In this document: in pieces, positions 22,710 to 30,813 of the stretch
Layout of the letters: each line of letters opens with the position of its first letter
How positions within the stretch are numbered: position 1 is the stretch's first letter
Assembly: GCA_014860005.1 (NCBI GenBank)
Contig: JACZKP010000190.1
Coordinates: 1 to 45,369 of the forward strand
Direction: 5' to 3'
DNA length: 45,369 bases
Source: Verrucomicrobiota bacterium
Lineage (GTDB): Bacteria > Verrucomicrobiota > Verrucomicrobiae > Limisphaerales > UBA11358
Program-made: the position numbers and the translations under genes
Notes under the pieces: generated by a model
Databases searched by the model: none
The model's input: the letters and a program-made list of their open reading frames with translations, nothing else
Told to the model about the DNA's origin: nothing

Positions 22710-23705
22710 TCACTCCGAAACCCCCGTTCGCTGCCGGGCTATTCGAGCCTTTCGCGCTATTTCCGGGTCGGAAACCGGCTTCCATTCATCATCGTGAACG
22801 AAGTAACCAATGCTCACACCCAGACGATCGTCATGCGCGATCATTCTGGCGGGCGACGCGATTCGCCCTGCCATGTCTTTCTCGGAGAAACTGATCTTGG
22901 TCACGGTTAATTCCGATTGCAGTACGACGCGGAGATCATTCGGATCTTTCCGTTCCCAATTGGGGAAGAAACGCTTGCAGACCGCCCGCAATGGAAAAGT
23001 GATGCCGTGGAGATTCGTTGTTTCAATGACCTTGTACTGGAGTTCTGTGAAGCCATTTTCAAACGGTGCTGCATATCGCATAATTCGGCCCTCGTCCTCC
23101 AGGCCGGTTTTCTCGACATTCAAGTCGAGTTCGAACCCGCTATTCGTGATCACCAATTCTGAAAGAAAAGCGTTCTCGGGAGTGAGATATTTGGCTGCGT
23201 AGAAACCTTCATTTTCCGGCGCGTTGAAGATTTTGGGACGGTAGTCCGGCAGGCTGATAAACCTTCGCATTTGCTGCCCGTCAATCAACGGCTATTGGGG
23301 ATACGGACAAAGGCCTAGCCAAGTGGCCAACATTGCCGTCCTACCGGACAGAGGAAATGAAAACGGACAGGCGTTGACTGATGTCGTCACACCCGTGTTC
23401 GTGCTGCCTTCAAACACAACGTAGGAACGGGTGCCATCCGGAATCTTCATGCAGTTTTCGACGATTGTGATTCCGCTGGGCCGGTGCAAGTACCTGAACC
23501 TGGCTTCCACCTGCCACCAGCCGTTGCTGTAGAGGAAAACCACGCGCGCGTCGGTTCGGTAATTCAGATTCGTGTCGGTTCTGAATTCCTGAGTCAACAG
23601 GCGTCCTTCGGCAACAAAGGGAGGGATGGCGTTTTCCGCTGCCATGGCCGGGAGACATTTCAACAGCCAACCGATCATGCCGAACATGCAAATGTGTGTT
23701 TTCAT
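22710..23705 (-). pseudogene. Tandem duplicate of the exported 330-residue protein, interrupted by one in-frame TAG
   Basis: Two reading-frame pieces (23705-23292 and 23291-22710) are in the same frame and separated only by TAG at 23294-23292. Aligned with the intact copy at 23716-24708, the residues around it read CPYPQ-stop-PLIDGQQ against CPQPE-L-PVMDGQR, so a leucine codon (probably TTG) became TAG and nothing else was lost. The first part has the same signal peptide (MKTHICMFGMIGWLLKCLPA then MAAEN). Roughly two thirds of the residues still match. The stop could in principle be read through; otherwise the gene is dead and recently so. The gap to the intact copy is 10 bases. Confidence 0.8.
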
Positions 23706-23715
23706 AAAGATGTGC

Positions 23716-24708
23716 TCACTCAGATCTTTCTGTTTCTTGCCCGGCGGAGAGTGTTCTCCGCTTGATCTCCGGGTCGGACACCGGCTTCCACTGGTCGTCG
23801 TAAACACTGTAACTCCTCCTGGCACCGGGCCGGAAGTCCATCGCGCGCATTTCAGCAGGGGCCGTGATTCGGCTTGCCACGTCCTTTTCGGAGAAACTGA
23901 TCCATGTCACCGTCAGTTCCGACTGTGACCCAACGCGCAAGTCATCCCGGTCTTTTCCTCCCCAGTTGGGGGAAAAACGCTTGCTCATCGTCCGCAGCGG
24001 GAAAGCCACGCCATTGATGTTCGTTGATTCGATTACTTGATAATGAAGTTCTGTATAGCCGTTCTCAAACGGCGCGGCCACCCGGTGGATCTCTCTACCG
24101 ACGGCAAAGTCTGGAGCAACTGTCAGTTCTATGCTGAACCCATTGTTGGTGACCAGCAATTCCGAGAGGAAAACATTCCCCGGTGCGAGGGGCTGGGTTT
24201 TGTAGAAGCCCTCGTTCTGCGGAGCATTAAAAATGTCAGGGTAGCAGGACGGTAGATTGATGAATCGGCTCATTCGCTGGCCGTCCATCACGGGCAACTC
24301 TGGCTGCGGACAAAGACTCAGCCACGGGAACAATAATTCCGGCCTTCCGGGTGGAGGAAAAGCCGTCGGACAGGCTTGGACTCCCACCAGACCTCTTGCG
24401 GTGCTGCCCTCAAAGTGCGTGTAAGTGCGGGTTCCATCCGGAATTCTCATGCAATTATAGACGTTGGTCATGGTTCCGGAAAGGTGGTTCAAGTGCCTCG
24501 CTTCAACCTGCCACCACCCGTTGCTATAGATAAAAATGAAGCTCGCATCAGTCCGGTAATTTAGATTCGTTTTTCCGTCGGGTCGAAATCCCTGAGTTAA
24601 CAGGCGTCCTTCGGCAACAAACGGCGGGATGGCGTTTTCCGCTGCCATGACCGGGAGACATTTCAAGAGCCAGCCGATCATGCCGACCATGCAAATGTGT
24701 GTTTTCAT
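23716..24708 (-). CDS. Exported protein of the sigma-linked sensor-domain family (intact copy)
   Basis: From ATG 24708 there are 330 residues with a signal peptide (MKTHICMVGMIGWLLKCLPV then MAAEN). The mature part is beta-rich: IYSNGWWQVEAR, LLFPWLSLCPQPELP, a central NEGFY region, and AAPFENGYTELHYQVIESTN with NGVAFPLR. The same order of segments (W.VE, a PWL..C block, and G.L.FHY....TN..GW..P) is found in the 360-residue neighbour and in the C-terminal domain of the sigma fusion protein at 26015, so I take all as distant paralogues. It is probably the third gene of that operon. Its function is unknown. The ATG choice is supported by the shared signal peptide in the duplicate. Confidence 0.72.
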   Translation of the reverse strand: MKTHICMVGMIGWLLKCLPVMAAENAIPPFVAEGRLLTQGFRPDGKTNLNYRTDASFIFIYSNGWWQVEARHLNHLSGTMTNVYNCMRIPDGTRTYTHFEGSTARGLVGVQACPTAFPPPGRPELLFPWLSLCPQPELPVMDGQRMSRFINLPSCYPDIFNAPQNEGFYKTQPLAPGNVFLSELLVTNNGFSIELTVAPDFAVGREIHRVAAPFENGYTELHYQVIESTNINGVAFPLRTMSKRFSPNWGGKDRDDLRVGSQSELTVTWISFSEKDVASRITAPAEMRAMDFRPGARRSYSVYDDQWKPVSDPEIKRRTLSAGQETERSE

Positions 24709-24875
24709 AAAGATGTGCGTCTGGATGTTGGCTGGCTGCGCCCGTGTCATGGTTGGTCTTTGGTGGAAGACGCAGGTTGTCGCGCCACCCGCCATTCAAC
24801 GGTCTGTAAATCACCGATTGGCGATCTCGACGGTTCTTGCAGTGGTTTCACCCGCATATTCATGCTGTGAAGCCG

Positions 24876-25958
24876 CTATGGTCCGCGTTTCGCCCGTGCG
24901 ATCCGTTCTGCGAGTTTTTCTTGTAGTACCGGATCATTCGTTGGTGGTACGAAGGTGTTGGTCGTGGTGTACTCAATCGCACGATCGTAAGGACTCAGTA
25001 AGCCTGCATCACGAAAACGGTAGTCCCAAATGGTTTGATTCGTTGCACCTGGCACAATGACGCTTGCTGGTTTTGTGGAGGCGATAATGGACGTAACGTT
25101 TCCCCTGCCACCCATTCGCGGCACTGTCTTGCCGTGTTCATAGTCATTACGATACCATTCGAAAGCGACTGGTATATTCCATCCCAAGAAGTTTGTTGAC
25201 CTGGTGACGACATAATGGAACCGAAGAGCGCCCTCGGGAAAATCCCATTTGAACCCTGTGGACCCACGTTTCCATAATTCTACGTTTTGATTGCCTTGAA
25301 AGATGCCATTTGTGACAGAAGCAGAAAAGAGTGAGTCGGAGGCGAACATATCCACAGTTTGTGGCAGTCCCAAGTCGTCCTGGAAAGTTAGTGTCCTGTC
25401 GGAATAGGCGAGGCTGTCAGGGGAAGTGAGGGCGCCAAAAATCATCGTCGGCACCGGCAACGGGATCAGTCGGCTCTCGCGTTTCAGATAGTCTCCGGAG
25501 CAGAACGCCAACCAAGGCATGTTATGCATCGTCGCGCCCATCGGGCATCCCATGTAAGATGGACGCGAGGAGACGGTCACACGAGAATTCCCTGATGGGA
25601 AGTTATCGTTGTAATAGACGTTGGTCCCGTCGAAGCATAACTGTGTCTTCCCACCCTCCCCAAAGCTTAAATCAATGCGCCACTCATTCGTTCCAGTGGT
25701 GCAAACCGCTAAAAAGGCCAGGTTGGTCAAGTTTGCGGGATGTTCGATGTCACCGGAGGGGAATACGAATTGCTCGAACTCTGCGGTGATTGTCACGAAA
25801 CGTTGGGTCGGTGCATTTCCCATGCTCGGCGCGACCGATCGCGAGCTTGCCGTTTCTTCCGCAGCTTGAAGCGACAGACCGAGAAACAGCATGGCCACGG
25901 TGAGCGGTCGGGTGGTGGATGCTTTGAGATTTCGGAGTTGATGACAGAATGCCTTCAT
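24876..25958 (-). CDS. Exported protein, stand-alone paralogue of the sensor domain of the adjacent sigma fusion
   Basis: This 360-residue protein has a basic N-terminus and a hydrophobic core (TVAMLFLGLSLQAAEE) ending in a likely signal-peptidase site. The mature region matches the C-terminal half of the next gene upstream on the same strand in long, clear blocks: NMPWLAFCSGDYLKRESRLI against NIPWLAFCSGTYLKREGRLI, DDLGLPQTVDMF against DALGLPRTVDLF, FHYVVTRSTNFLGW against FHYAATDWTNFFGW, and a tail TNTFVPPTNDPVLQEKLAER against TNAFASPTNDPALQEQFAKK. It starts 56 bases after the sigma fusion, so it is almost certainly in the same operon. Biochemical function is unknown. Confidence 0.8.
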   Translation of the reverse strand: MKAFCHQLRNLKASTTRPLTVAMLFLGLSLQAAEETASSRSVAPSMGNAPTQRFVTITAEFEQFVFPSGDIEHPANLTNLAFLAVCTTGTNEWRIDLSFGEGGKTQLCFDGTNVYYNDNFPSGNSRVTVSSRPSYMGCPMGATMHNMPWLAFCSGDYLKRESRLIPLPVPTMIFGALTSPDSLAYSDRTLTFQDDLGLPQTVDMFASDSLFSASVTNGIFQGNQNVELWKRGSTGFKWDFPEGALRFHYVVTRSTNFLGWNIPVAFEWYRNDYEHGKTVPRMGGRGNVTSIIASTKPASVIVPGATNQTIWDYRFRDAGLLSPYDRAIEYTTTNTFVPPTNDPVLQEKLAERIARAKRGP

Positions 25959-26014
25959 CTGGGTCGGGTGATAACTGCATGGAAGTTAGTTGAGCCGTTC
26001 ATTGTGTCAAGCCA

Positions 26015-27892
26015 TCACGGCCTGCGGCTCATCTGTCCTATCTTCTTGGCAAATTGTTCTTGAAGCGCGGGGTCGTTCGTCGGCGACGCGAAAGCATTGG
26101 TGGTTACGTAGGTAAGAGCATTGACCTTGCTCGTTGCATCTCGGAAACGCCAATCCACGATGGTCTGCTGCATGGTCGGCACGAACAGATTTCCCGGTAT
26201 GGTTGACTCGCGGATGGACTTCACTCTACCGATGCCACGACAGAACCAATCGCCATTTTGCTCATACTTCCGGCCTTCTTGGAAAAACTCGAACTTTGTT
26301 GGGAAGATCCAACCGAAGAAGTTTGTCCAATCGGTCGCAGCGTAGTGGAAGGTAAGCACGCCCTCCTCCAGTTCTGCCACGATTTTCTTCTTCCACGCCG
26401 CGTATCGGGTTCCGAAGAAGGCTTCCTCGTCGAACGCATCTTCAGAAGCTTCAAGCAGCGCTTTCGAGGTGAAGAGATCTACCGTTCGCGGGAGTCCAAG
26501 CGCGTCGTTGAAAGTCTCGGTCTGGTCGGTGTACGCGAAACGATCGCGCGTGTGGCGCAGGGTGGTGGCAGGTAGAGGAATAAGCCGTCCTTCGCGCTTT
26601 AAGTATGTTCCCGAACAAAACGCGAGCCAGGGAATATTCACGACGATGTCGCCCAGCGGATGACCGTCGAGTGACGGCCAGATGTGAATTCCGAGATTGG
26701 TCTTTGCCTGCTCGTAAGGCACGGTCCAGGCAAGCTTGTCTCTGGTTTCCTCCGCATCCGGCTCAGTGACGCGAAGACTTCTGTAAACGGTGCGACCATC
26801 AAAATGCCATTTCGATTCGCCAGTCGTGGTAAAATCATTCTCGATCCACCACTCGTTGGTTCCTGTGACGCAAACGAAAGAGAACTTCCGGAAAGATTCT
26901 CCGGTTACAATGTGGCCAGTCTCGCTCCCGGGATGGGAGGTGAATTCAACCTCCCCGGAGATTTCGACATACCGTTGCGGATCGGCTTCCACAACCTGCT
27001 CGGGTAACAGAGCCACACCCGCAAGTCGTCTGGAGATTTCACGACGCGTCACGCCCTCAACGACGGTTTCACCAGCGCTCACTTGTGCCTGCGAATCTGC
27101 CTCATTGCCTCCGTGCTTGCCAAACCACAGCCAGGTTATGGACAAGGCGGCCACAGTGAGAGTTGCCGTCACCTTTTGCAATCGCGTCAGACTCGTGAAC
27201 AACGCCAGCAACGCGAGCAGACCCGCGAAAGTCGGTGCTGCACTTCGCAAGGCTGCCTTCGTCACACGTGAAGCCGTGACGGCCGGGATGGACGCCGCTG
27301 TATGTTGCAGTGCCGCCGCCGCCGCCGCCACCGTGGCTGTCTTGTAGCCGCGTCGCTGGAAGAATTGGGACAGTTTCTCCAGCGCGGCGGCCACGCGTTT
27401 GCGCGCTGCATCTTCGCTGGTCCCGAGCGATTCTCCCACGTCGCGCAAGGACCGCCTTTCGTAATAACGCAGCAACAACGCGGTCCGGTCCTGGTCTCGA
27501 AGGGAAAGCAGCGCCTCATCCAACAGCGGGACGAGGGCGTTGAACGCGGGTTGTTCGTCCGGGTTTTTCATGGTCGTGCCCAGTTCGGCAGCGGTTTGTT
27601 CGCGGCGACGGCGGCGCAATTCGCCGCGCATCCAGGATTTGGCTTCGAGCAGGGTCGTGCGATGCAGCCAGGAAGGGAGCGAGTCGTCCGGTGCGAACTG
27701 CCACGCCTTGCGCGCAAGCACGCCGAAGACATTCTGACAGATTTCCTCCGCCGCGCCGTCGTCCGTGACTTTGCGCCGCGCGGTGGCATAGACGAGATCG
27801 AGATGCCGGCGGGTGACGGCGGCGAACGCCTGCTGATCGCTCTGCCGGGCAAACGCCCGCAACAATGCAAAATCCGATCGCCCTACGCTCAT
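26015..27892 (-). CDS. Membrane-tethered ECF-type sigma factor fused to an extracytoplasmic domain
   Basis: From ATG 27892 the protein has 625 residues. Residues 1-185 form a sigma-70-type factor of the ECF group: region 2 (FARQSDQQAFAAVTRRHLDL, EEICQNVFGVLARKAW) and region 4 (LLSLRDQDRTALLLRYYERR, SLRDVGESLGTSEDAARKRV). An Ala-rich linker leads to one membrane helix (about 241-257), then a basic stop. Residues about 300-625 form the same beta-rich exported domain as the gene at 24876. The fusion would place a transcription factor inside and its sensor outside; how the sigma part is released (proteolysis or direct signalling) is not visible. Two or three sensor paralogues follow. It heads the operon. 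Confidence 0.85.
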   Translation of the reverse strand: MSVGRSDFALLRAFARQSDQQAFAAVTRRHLDLVYATARRKVTDDGAAEEICQNVFGVLARKAWQFAPDDSLPSWLHRTTLLEAKSWMRGELRRRRREQTAAELGTTMKNPDEQPAFNALVPLLDEALLSLRDQDRTALLLRYYERRSLRDVGESLGTSEDAARKRVAAALEKLSQFFQRRGYKTATVAAAAAALQHTAASIPAVTASRVTKAALRSAAPTFAGLLALLALFTSLTRLQKVTATLTVAALSITWLWFGKHGGNEADSQAQVSAGETVVEGVTRREISRRLAGVALLPEQVVEADPQRYVEISGEVEFTSHPGSETGHIVTGESFRKFSFVCVTGTNEWWIENDFTTTGESKWHFDGRTVYRSLRVTEPDAEETRDKLAWTVPYEQAKTNLGIHIWPSLDGHPLGDIVVNIPWLAFCSGTYLKREGRLIPLPATTLRHTRDRFAYTDQTETFNDALGLPRTVDLFTSKALLEASEDAFDEEAFFGTRYAAWKKKIVAELEEGVLTFHYAATDWTNFFGWIFPTKFEFFQEGRKYEQNGDWFCRGIGRVKSIRESTIPGNLFVPTMQQTIVDWRFRDATSKVNALTYVTTNAFASPTNDPALQEQFAKKIGQMSRRP

Positions 27893-27944
27893 ATTCAACC
27901 CACAAGCTGCCGCTCGCGGGACAAACCGGAAATGATTTTTTTAG
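27893..27944 (-). promoter_or_regulatory. Conserved leader of sigma fusion gene 1
   Basis: On the minus strand an A-run (27942-27936), TTTCCGG (27932-27926) and GGCAGC (27911-27906) precede the ATG. The same three blocks occur before the second sigma fusion at 30775-30813 with identical distances: 14 bases between TTTYCGG and GGCAGC, and 10 bases between the starts of the T-run and CCG on the plus strand. Such spacing suits a promoter or operator recognised by the sigma factors themselves. Confidence 0.5.
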
Positions 27945-28019
27945 CATCGCCAAAGAGGTTGGCGTCAGACTCGCGGTCGGCCGGTGGAAATTGATTCTCC
28001 TCGTCACCTGTTTCTCGAA

Positions 28020-28096
28020 CATCATTCTGCCATTCTGTCATTCCTCAAACCGGCCGGGCAAAAACGAGAGTCAGAATGATTGAGGGCAGAATGATG
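28020..28096. repeat. Inverted repeat of the GGCAGAATGAT family, possible terminator
   Basis: CATCATTCTGCC (28020-28031) and GGCAGAATGATG (28085-28096) are perfect 12-bp inverted arms. Each is doubled internally by a similar unit (CATTCTGTCATTC and CAGAATGATTGAG). It lies just downstream of the last gene of the second sigma operon, so it could stop transcription there. Related units occur at 37947-38030, 39719-39801 and 41665-41854. Confidence 0.65.
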
Positions 28097-28126
28097 GGAG
28101 CGGGCTGCTGCAAAGACTGGCTGTGT

Positions 28127-29077
28127 TCAGCGAGTCTCGGCCTTTTCGCGAAACGTCTTTGGCAATTCGAAACCTTCGTGGGCCGCCAGATCCGGCCAAC
28201 CGTTCGGGAACAGCGGCTTGAAGGCCTGGGGGAAAGGTTGCCATGGGGCAACAACCGCGGTCATGTCATCGCCCGCCTGTTTGATGGTGAAGAGCAATTG
28301 GCCGTCGGTCCCGGCAGGGTAGCGATTCACCGTCAACGTGGTTGAATCATCACGGTCGGCTTTCAGTCCGACCCCGTCATCGAGCATTCCGGCATCCCAC
28401 ATCCATGAATAGGCGTAAGGCCCCTCCATCAACTCACCACGCTCAAGTCCGAGCGTCGCCAGAATACCGCTCACAAATGCGTTGCTTCGACTCTGGGAAA
28501 ACTCAGCGTCTTTCGGCAACGAATACCTGGCCAGCACATCCCCGGATGGTTCTTCACGCTGCGCGTGCGCGATCACCCAGGCTGTATGTTCGGTGCGCAG
28601 TCGTTCGGCGAGCGCTTCAATGGCGACTTGTTCCTCCGGGGTGATCGCCAGCGTCCCCCGCGCCGCTTCGGTCAGTTTCACCCCCTTGATGCCGGTCAAA
28701 GAGATGCCCGGCAAGGATTGCTTGCTGACGATGAGATAATCGCCGGTGGTGTTCCAGTTGAACCCCAGTTCGGCCAACAACTGTTCGCTTTCCGCGGGGG
28801 AAAGATCGTTCAATGCCGCGCCAGAAAGGACTTTTTCCGCGAGCACCGAAAGCGCGGGTCGTGTTGGTTGTGCCGCAAGGAGCTGCCGGGTTTCACGCAC
28901 GCGTTCGAGCACTTGTTGTTGCTCGAAATAGAGTTGAGCAAGCTGTTGGGTTTGCATTTGCCAGGCCGTCGTCCGGATGGCGGCTTCCCGCTTGGTTTCT
29001 GTCGTTGCGTTGCGCAGGGCGCAGAAGACGGTGGTTCCCGCAACGAGAATAACGATTGCGAGGAGGGCGCGTTTCAT
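28127..29077 (-). CDS. Membrane-anchored or exported partner of sigma fusion 2
   Basis: From ATG 29077 the protein has 316 residues; the start overlaps the sigma gene stop by 4 bases (ATGA), so the two are translationally coupled. An N-terminal hydrophobic segment (MKRALLAIVILVAGTTVF) is followed by a coiled-coil stretch (about 40-75: LAQLYFEQQQVLERVRETRQ) and a globular C-terminal region. LAITPEEQVAIEALAERLR and YSLPKDA recall LLGLTPAERELAEAALQKH and YSSLPRDA in the sensor half of the sigma fusion, suggesting a shared domain. I cannot name the family. It ends at 28127 before an inverted repeat. Confidence 0.75.
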   Translation of the reverse strand: MKRALLAIVILVAGTTVFCALRNATTETKREAAIRTTAWQMQTQQLAQLYFEQQQVLERVRETRQLLAAQPTRPALSVLAEKVLSGAALNDLSPAESEQLLAELGFNWNTTGDYLIVSKQSLPGISLTGIKGVKLTEAARGTLAITPEEQVAIEALAERLRTEHTAWVIAHAQREEPSGDVLARYSLPKDAEFSQSRSNAFVSGILATLGLERGELMEGPYAYSWMWDAGMLDDGVGLKADRDDSTTLTVNRYPAGTDGQLLFTIKQAGDDMTAVVAPWQPFPQAFKPLFPNGWPDLAAHEGFELPKTFREKAETR

Positions 29078-30765
29078 TGGTCGCCTTTCGGTTGCAGTCG
29101 GGCTTCGGCCTGCTGCCGAATCCACGCCAACGCCGGCCGGGTCAACGCAGCGGGGAAATCTTGCACATGCAGCTCCTCTTCGAGGGTGCCGCCAAACGGC
29201 AATTCCGCACCCGGCAGGAAAAGCTCCAACGCCAGGCCGCGAGGACCAAATGAGGAGCGTTGCGTTCGCCAACCATAATAGGCCATCAATTTGCCATCCT
29301 GGTCCCGAATCGAAACCGCCATTTCTTGTCCCTGGTCCCCGGCATCCAGGTGCAGGAGGCGTCGGAGCGTATGAGTGCCGTAAGATTTCGACTGTTCCCC
29401 CAGCAGCGGCCAGCGCTCGCCGCCGAGGACCGTCTGGAGAGTCACCTGCAATTCTTCCGCGCTTTGCTTCACCGCATCGCCCAGCGCGGGCAGGGCGAAC
29501 ACCTGACTTGCGACCGCGTCCCTGGGCAGACTGGAGTAGCTCCGGCTGTTGGTTTCGTATCGGCTCGACTCCATCAAGCTGTCCATCGCAGCGAGATGTT
29601 TCTGCAAGGCCGCCTCCGCCAGCTCACGCTCTGCTGGCGTCAACCCCAGCAACTCGCGCGCTTCCCGTTTGATCACGCCGGGTTGCGTGATCGGCAGAGA
29701 AACGGTCAACTGCGGCAGAATCGCCTTCGGAATTCGCACGAACGGCAGGTCGGCCGGCCATTGATAATCCGCGGTCAAAAGGCGGACCCGCACCCGCTCT
29801 TTCCACCCAGCGAATTTTTGCTCCGTCTCCGCACTGCGGGCCGCTGCGGTGCGGGCGTTGGCCAACGAATCGTCCAGTCGCGCTGCGGATGCCTTTAGCC
29901 GTTGGATTTCGGTTTGGACCCGATTGAATTCATACTGCGCGGCCGCAAGTTGGGTGTCCGTCTGCGCCAGCGCGGTCTCCGTTTCGCGATGTTCACGCAA
30001 TTGCCACGCTACCGGCCCGGCGGCAATCGCCACGCAAAGCGCCGCCGTTTGCATTTTGGTCAGGCTGGCAAACCGCGCGAACAAAACAGTCAAACCCGCC
30101 AGCGCGGGCGGTGCCGCCTGCAACGCGGCACTCACCACGGCGCTCGTGGTCGCCGCCGATGCAGATGCGGCGGTGTGGTGCAGCGCCGCCATGGCCGCTG
30201 CAACCGTCGCGGTTTTGAATCCACGGCGTTGGAAGAAATCCGAAAGCTTCTCCAACGCACTCTGCACGCGCTTCTGAGCAGTGTCTTCGCCGACGCCGAG
30301 GGACGCGCCCACGTCGCGCAGCGACTGGCTCTCGTAGAAACGTAGCAGCAGCGCGGTGCGATCCTTTTCGCGCAGTGAAAGCAACGCTTCGTCCAGCAGC
30401 GGCACGAGCGCGTTGAATGCGGGTTGTTCGTCGGGGGTTTTCATGGTCGTGCCGAGTTCGGCGGCGGTTTGCTCGCGTCGTCGTCGTCGCAGTTCGCCAC
30501 GCAGCCAGGATTTGGATTCGAGCAAGGCCGTTTTGTGCAGCCATGCCGGTAATGAATCGTCCGGGGCGAACTGCCAGGCTTTACCGGCCAGCGCGGTGAA
30601 AACGTTCTGCGCGACCTCTTGCGAGCCGTGTGAGTCCGCCAATTTACGGAGCGCGGTGGCGAAGACGAGATCGAGATGGCGGCGCACCAGATCGGCGAAG
30701 GCGCTTTGCTCGCCGTGGCGAACGAAACGTTGCAGCAACTCGAAATCGGTTCGGCGCTCGTTCAT
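29074..30765 (-). CDS. Membrane-tethered ECF-type sigma factor fused to a coiled-coil extracytoplasmic domain
   Basis: The protein has 563 residues from ATG 30765; another ATG three codons earlier is possible, but the shared leader favours this one. Residues 1-182 are an ECF-type sigma factor nearly identical in layout to the one at 26015: SAFADLVRRHLDLVFATALR (region 2) and LLSLREKDRTALLLRFYESQ with VGASLGVGEDTAQKRVQSAL (region 4). A linker leads to a membrane helix (about 238-255), then a long coiled coil (about 260-315, ALAQTDTQLAAAQYEFNRVQ) and a globular domain of about 240 residues. The sigma part is inside, the sensor outside. An overlapping partner gene follows. Its sensor is unrelated in sequence to that of the first fusion. 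Confidence 0.84.
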   Translation of the reverse strand: MNERRTDFELLQRFVRHGEQSAFADLVRRHLDLVFATALRKLADSHGSQEVAQNVFTALAGKAWQFAPDDSLPAWLHKTALLESKSWLRGELRRRRREQTAAELGTTMKTPDEQPAFNALVPLLDEALLSLREKDRTALLLRFYESQSLRDVGASLGVGEDTAQKRVQSALEKLSDFFQRRGFKTATVAAAMAALHHTAASASAATTSAVVSAALQAAPPALAGLTVLFARFASLTKMQTAALCVAIAAGPVAWQLREHRETETALAQTDTQLAAAQYEFNRVQTEIQRLKASAARLDDSLANARTAAARSAETEQKFAGWKERVRVRLLTADYQWPADLPFVRIPKAILPQLTVSLPITQPGVIKREARELLGLTPAERELAEAALQKHLAAMDSLMESSRYETNSRSYSSLPRDAVASQVFALPALGDAVKQSAEELQVTLQTVLGGERWPLLGEQSKSYGTHTLRRLLHLDAGDQGQEMAVSIRDQDGKLMAYYGWRTQRSSFGPRGLALELFLPGAELPFGGTLEEELHVQDFPAALTRPALAWIRQQAEARLQPKGDQ

Positions 30766-30774
30766 TTCACCCAT

Positions 30775-30813
30775 AGGCTGCCGCCGAAGTAACGAATCCG
30801 AAAACTATTTTTG
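30775..30813 (-). promoter_or_regulatory. Conserved leader of sigma fusion gene 2
   Basis: On the minus strand an A-run (30812-30808), TTTTCGG (30804-30798) and GGCAGC (30783-30778) match the leader of the first sigma fusion in sequence and spacing. The last bases before the start are also alike (TGGGTGAA-ATG against TGGGTTGAAT-ATG), which supports starting this gene at 30765. Confidence 0.5.

Follow-up and report, generated by a model that had tools for sequence, protein, structure and literature searches.

Candidate membrane-tethered ECF sigma factors with sensor domains and adjacent headless sensor homologues in a Verrucomicrobiota bacterium

ECF sigma factors are mostly held by separate anti-sigma proteins. 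A review of 2021 raises the question of how ECFs without a nearby regulator gene are controlled (PMC8103513). In the sigma/anti-sigma hybrid IutY of Pseudomonas putida, Prc and RseP set the sigma part free (PMC5411451, PMC9249621). The periplasmic part of IutY is FecR-like and receives a signal from the outer-membrane receptor IutA. In E. coli, RseB gates the release of an ECF sigma factor, and LPS has been proposed to displace RseB (PMC8103513). In the groups ECF41, ECF42 and ECF56, a fused C-terminal domain controls the sigma factor (PMC8103513, PMC3426412, PMC7730460), and WD40-bearing ECF factors have been described in Planctomycetes (PMC8567305). As for sigma-sensor fusions in Verrucomicrobia, no title was found among the matches listed in the open-licence PMC literature.

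The window considered here, i.e., the whole analysed stretch of 45,369 nucleotides, contains two gene sets on the minus strand at 22.7-30.8 kb, in the order S2-P2 and then S1-D1-D2-D3. S2 (29074..30765, 563 aa from the ATG at 30765) encodes an ECF sigma factor followed by a hydrophobic linker, a 78-residue helix and an alpha/beta sensor. P2 (28127..29077), overlapping S2 by 4 nt (ATGA), encodes a headless partner of S2 with an N-terminal hydrophobic segment, a coiled coil and a homologous domain. After a spacing of 234 nt, there follows S1 (26015..27892, 625 aa from the ATG at 27892), which consists of an ECF sigma factor, a hydrophobic linker and a domain designated DomA. D1 (24876..25958) is a free DomA protein with a signal-like N-terminus and a predicted LolA-type fold, D2 (23716..24708) is a free protein of the homologous DomB family, and D3 (22710..23705) is a second DomB copy with an in-frame TAG at 23294-23292, which is a mutation or a sequence error. 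The likely starts were derived from the sequence (27892 for S1, 30765 for S2, 24708 for D2, 23705 for D3 and 29077 for P2). The arrangement noted in the preliminary description, two sigma-sensor fusions each followed by free homologues of the sensor, is real; it is general for the S2 type and nearly single so far for the S1 type.

Sigma-70 regions 2 and 4 exceed the Pfam gathering score in both S1 and S2, and TIGR02937 is also above its cut-off, which places both heads among ECF sigma factors. S1 and S2 share 60% identity across head and linker, and BLASTP gave no similarity of note between their C-terminal parts. IutY combines an ECF sigma head, a single membrane segment and a periplasmic domain in one chain; S1 and S2 recall it in having a sigma head and a C-terminal domain, with an ambiguous number of membrane crossings between them. 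The sensors, however, are distinct from that of IutY and are paired with a headless sensor homologue; a search against Pfam, with E values of up to 1 allowed, revealed no FecR domain in either protein. ECF41, ECF42 and ECF56 differ in another way, since their extensions are SnoaL_2 or TPR domains, to which those of S1 and S2, attached through a hydrophobic linker, are unrelated (a C-terminal SnoaL_2 domain of the ECF41 type had no Pfam match in either protein).

The linker deserves separate attention. Each chain joins the sigma head to its C-terminal domain through hydrophobic stretches, of which S1 has two (residues 223-241 and 243-261, numbered from the TTG at 27898), and both of those in S2 are marginal. 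Thus, the hydrophobic linker reported earlier for S1 is present, but not as one helix, and a hairpin is possible there. Hydrophobic segments were called with a simplified scale, and 16 of 46 S2-type loci have none by the cut-off used. The positive-inside rule gives no support to an outside C-terminus, because K/R excess on the N side was found in 5 of 46 S2-type loci (and in 19 of the 49 other loci). A position of the sensor outside the membrane is suggested by homologues: a hydrophobic segment is present at the N-terminus of each of the 39 P2-type partners, and free DomA proteins bear such a segment at the N-terminus in 75 cases of 107 and at the C-terminus in 31 of 107. With two stretches in S1, marginal ones in S2 and unsupportive charges, topology is the weakest step of the mechanism discussed below.

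As single sequences, S2 and P2 resemble each other weakly (E 0.027), but a comparison of profiles of the S2 sensor and P2 gave a probability of 99.9 and E 2.1e-31 over 284 columns, spanning the coiled coil and the domain, so their relationship, suspected from short shared patterns, is clear at the profile level. The alignment places the N-terminal hydrophobic segment of P2 on the S2 linker, a region to which only 12 of 47 sensor rows extend. P2 would thus be, in effect, S2 minus its sigma head. It was previously taken for a soluble duplicate of the sensor, a view that has to be corrected: P2 and all its counterparts carry the hydrophobic segment, so that it is not plainly soluble to judge by its sequence, and sensors and P2-type partners form two separate clusters. 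A test of own-pair homology with single sequences proved poor: at E<1e-3, matches were obtained for 26 of 69 own pairs and 747 of 4692 others, an excess of only about twofold because the families are shared among loci. Profiles and a six-frame profile search were used in its place.

To follow the pair across the order of the relative G001, the S2 head with linker was searched in 313 genomes, with up to eight candidates scored per genome, and 181 of them gave a match at E up to 1e-20. The locus set comprised 100 of the loci listed, with the sigma gene called in 95, and an S2-type sensor was present in 46 of these 95; the P2-type neighbours form a cluster of 39. Of 451 other ORFs, 40 match the S2-sensor profile (E<1e-3), 39 of these being the gene right after the sigma fusion. 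The six-frame check raised the number of S2-type loci to 50 by adding L115, L121, L131 and L145, and three (L101, L138 and L139), which end at a contig edge, were left out of the pairing count. A separate P2 lies directly downstream in 46 of the 47 S2-type loci with downstream DNA, and pairs were called outright in 34 genomes. The S2-P2 pairing is near-obligate, and the preliminary expectation that such pairing occurs in other genomes was correct: S2-P2 is found widely and S1-D1 in one close relative. The remaining locus, L105 of G130, appears to encode a hybrid of S2 and P2, a 623-aa ORF whose S2-type sensor continues as P2-type sequence.

In 38 pairs, the distances among sensors and among partners correlate with r 0.940, and the partial correlation given sigma is 0.825, a value reached by 0 of 1000 permutations. 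The partial correlation between sensor and sigma given the partner is -0.042, and that between partner and sigma given the sensor is 0.519. The divergence of the S2 sensor thus tracks its neighbour more than its own sigma head, which suits contact between sensor and partner, although the correlation left between partner and sigma weighs the other way and an exchange of heads could itself loosen the sensor-sigma signal. Among the decoy, ligand-delivery and dimer-partner roles initially proposed, this co-divergence favours the dimer partner over the decoy.

Homology in the other gene set is evident at once. S1 and D1 share 38% identity over 340 columns (BLASTP, E 4e-63), and the motifs quoted in the preliminary description are present, so that sensor and neighbour align in both sets, by BLASTP for S1-D1 and by profiles for S2-P2. 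The two further distant copies are also homologous (S1 vs D2, E 4e-6), but as a second family, DomB, represented by D2 and the broken D3; the DomA and DomB profiles match with a probability of 97.9 and E 5.7e-13. Of 320 genomes, 45 had a DomA match with E up to 0.001, some of these matches being weak. In the relative G001 (locus L001, MAG TGS_VER2), the gene order is a sigma fusion, a D1-like gene, another DomA-like gene and DomB. Of the 20 best-ranked further regions outside G001, 19 have a called DomA gene, and none of these genes is sigma-fused. By precomputed Pfam annotation, a sigma domain occurs in 7 of 120 listed DomA homologues (120 of 140), the window's own included, and in 1 of 37 DomB homologues. 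The known examples of S1-D1 pairing come from two closely related organisms, and the S1 set is rarer than the S2 set.

In a DomA tree built by a quick method, D1 falls, with support 98, in a group with P0091, P0125 and L001_7 that does not include the S1 sensor. D1 as a recent decoy duplicate of that sensor was dropped for this reason, and the earlier view of D1 as its soluble duplicate has to be corrected likewise, the two belonging to different DomA subfamilies. The eight sigma-fused DomA rows are interspersed with free ones, P0018 being sister to P0021 (support 99), and count as one group only when ungrouped rows are excluded. DomA and DomB are joined in one protein in P0100, P0103 and P0145, which link both families. 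A scan of viral contigs with the DomA profile found no relatives.

The predicted model of D1 has a LolA-type half-barrel and falls by its fold into the LolA/LolB/RseB superfamily, with low TM-scores in the best Foldseek row (0.30 by query and 0.46 by target); by homology with this model, the S1 sensor would have a LolA-type fold as well. At the sequence level, D1 had no Pfam match at E up to 1, S1 had no LolA or RseB match in Pfam, and neither NCBIfam nor a profile search of PDB sequences connected D1 with LolA or RseB; no similarity of S1 or D1 to RseB itself was found by Pfam or by the latter search. The D1 model resembles the LolA-type fold of RseB, but RseB exists as a protein of its own that binds an anti-sigma factor, whereas the DomA domain is inside the S1 sigma protein.

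Both S1 and S2 are preceded by an element of the form CGGWTT-N10-11-CGGCAG, namely CGGATT-N11-CGGCAG ahead of S2 (30778..30800, minus strand) and CGGTTT-N10-CGGCAG ahead of S1 (27907..27928, minus strand). Of 95 upstream sequences, 45 contain its loose form, CGGNTN-N5-14-CGGNAN, in their last 75 nt, a rate that is partly by construction as the patterns were derived from these same sequences; the carriers are both window genes, 38 of 44 S2-type genes and 5 of 49 other genes. In controls, it occurs in 56 of 2000 random 75-nt stretches and, after shuffling, in a mean of 0.93 of 95. The strict form TKTYCGGWTTN10-11CGGCAG has eight sites in 14 genomes, seven of them just upstream of such sigma-fusion genes (backward control, 1), and is absent in 7 of the 14 genomes despite a sigma-fusion gene of this kind. 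Genome-wide, the loose pattern gave at least 231 sites among those listed, versus at least 76 in the backward control, summed over 14 rows. A wider regulon was sought with both patterns: the strict sites lie, with one exception, at sigma-fusion genes, and the loose ones are in excess of their control. The sole strict copy in these genomes away from the sigma-fusion genes found is G080:C70:2920-2945. The distance from the element to the inferred start is 10-14 nt in 31 loci and 36-46 nt in six. We read the element as a putative autoregulatory promoter; it may instead have a role in translation, yet the six loci with the longer distance fit this less readily.

Taken as a whole, it is an evenly balanced question whether S1 and S2 are one-protein ECF receptors, with the downstream gene as a headless second subunit, IutY-like release and transcription of their own genes. 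Each chain would place its sigma head in the cytoplasm, cross the membrane and carry an extracytoplasmic sensor. S2 and P2, both anchored in the membrane, would pair via the coiled coil and the sensor domain, and S1 would pair with, or take a ligand from, LolA-fold D1 and D2, this ligand probably being a lipid or lipoprotein-like. An outside signal may alter the pair and make the tethered protein accessible to proteases acting in succession, as happens with IutY, and the freed head could then transcribe its own operon from the element described above. A membrane-held sigma factor driven from outside, as originally suggested, remains the best reading, with IutY as precedent, and its proteolytic release is a proposal by analogy. 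All 11 genomes contain the site-2 protease family M50; since each of 14 control genomes has it too, this is hardly informative.

Other explanations have to be weighed against the receptor with a fixed headless subunit. The sigma head may never be released and may work from the membrane like one-component membrane-bound activators, the partner setting only the oligomeric state; a headless coiled-coil homologue suits control by dimerisation, but cleavage of IutY, the nearest described protein, speaks against it, and we consider it rather unlikely. We are equally reserved about free domains as carriers of ligands or decoys titrating the signal rather than receptor subunits, with D1 and D2 ferrying lipid to or from the S1 sensor. 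The LolA-type fold of the D1 model, the mostly free occurrence of DomA (sigma-fused in none of the 19 regions) and the DomA-DomB fusions agree with carriers or decoys, whereas the near-obligate pairing and co-divergence of S2 and P2 and the membrane-like segment in every P2-type partner better suit a fixed partner.

It is very improbable, in our opinion, that the linker is a hairpin and the C-terminal domain a cytoplasmic regulatory extension as in ECF41. This would agree with the two neighbouring hydrophobic stretches of S1-type proteins and with the unfavourable charge distribution, but the terminal segments of free DomA proteins, the position of DomA behind a membrane peptidase of the M56 (BlaR1) type and the glycoside hydrolase or SecDF head domains borne by other fusions in the order all argue for an outside sensor. 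Still less credible is the view that local duplication, occurring repeatedly, simply left the neighbouring homologues behind and that they do not act together. Such regions do recombine, as follows from the broken D3, the mosaic described below and a second sigma gene after the first in five loci (L155, L158, L177, L183 and L186), but sensors and partners form separate clusters and are nevertheless paired in 46 of 47 loci.

IutY already provides a case of a tethered sigma factor. Among the matches listed in the open-licence literature, no title describes a near-obligate headless sister gene, a LolA-fold sensor or an exchange between heads and sensors. These operons suggest a testable answer to the question of the 2021 review: the sigma factor would be its own membrane receptor, and the adjacent headless gene a co-receptor. 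A LolA-fold sensor would combine within a single chain the roles divided among sigma-E, RseA and RseB in E. coli, and the exchange of heads and sensors together with a common upstream element would ease rewiring. The broader picture of a modular receptor, in which an exchangeable tethered sigma head is combined with varied outside sensors and, at least in the S2 type, an obligate headless sister and transcribes its own genes, S1 having a built-in RseB-like lipid sensor, is more tentative, and we lean somewhat against its holding in full.

Up to about residue 200, the L001 sigma gene resembles S2 (80-97% nucleotide identity per 60-nt window); beyond this point it resembles S1 (90-98% in most windows, with dips around residues 220 and 360-400). 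To judge from this pattern, it is a head/sensor swap within the linker. Of the 49 non-S2 fusions, five have DUF3738 in the sensor and two have TPR, while glycoside hydrolase family 2, alpha-L-fucosidase and a SecDF head occur once each (first 25 of 56 families listed). DomA itself stands behind a YceI domain in P0086 and behind an M56 peptidase in P0117, which resembles BlaR1/M56 sensor peptidases but has a protease instead of a sigma factor as the output module. Three loci, L164-L166, have another sensor type with a coiled-coil neighbour next, which matches the own sensor in L165 (E 6e-33) and L166 (2e-4) and not in L164. One more sigma fusion, L173:5209-6702, has a C-terminal part without a Pfam match, which we take to resemble a LolA/DUF2092 domain.
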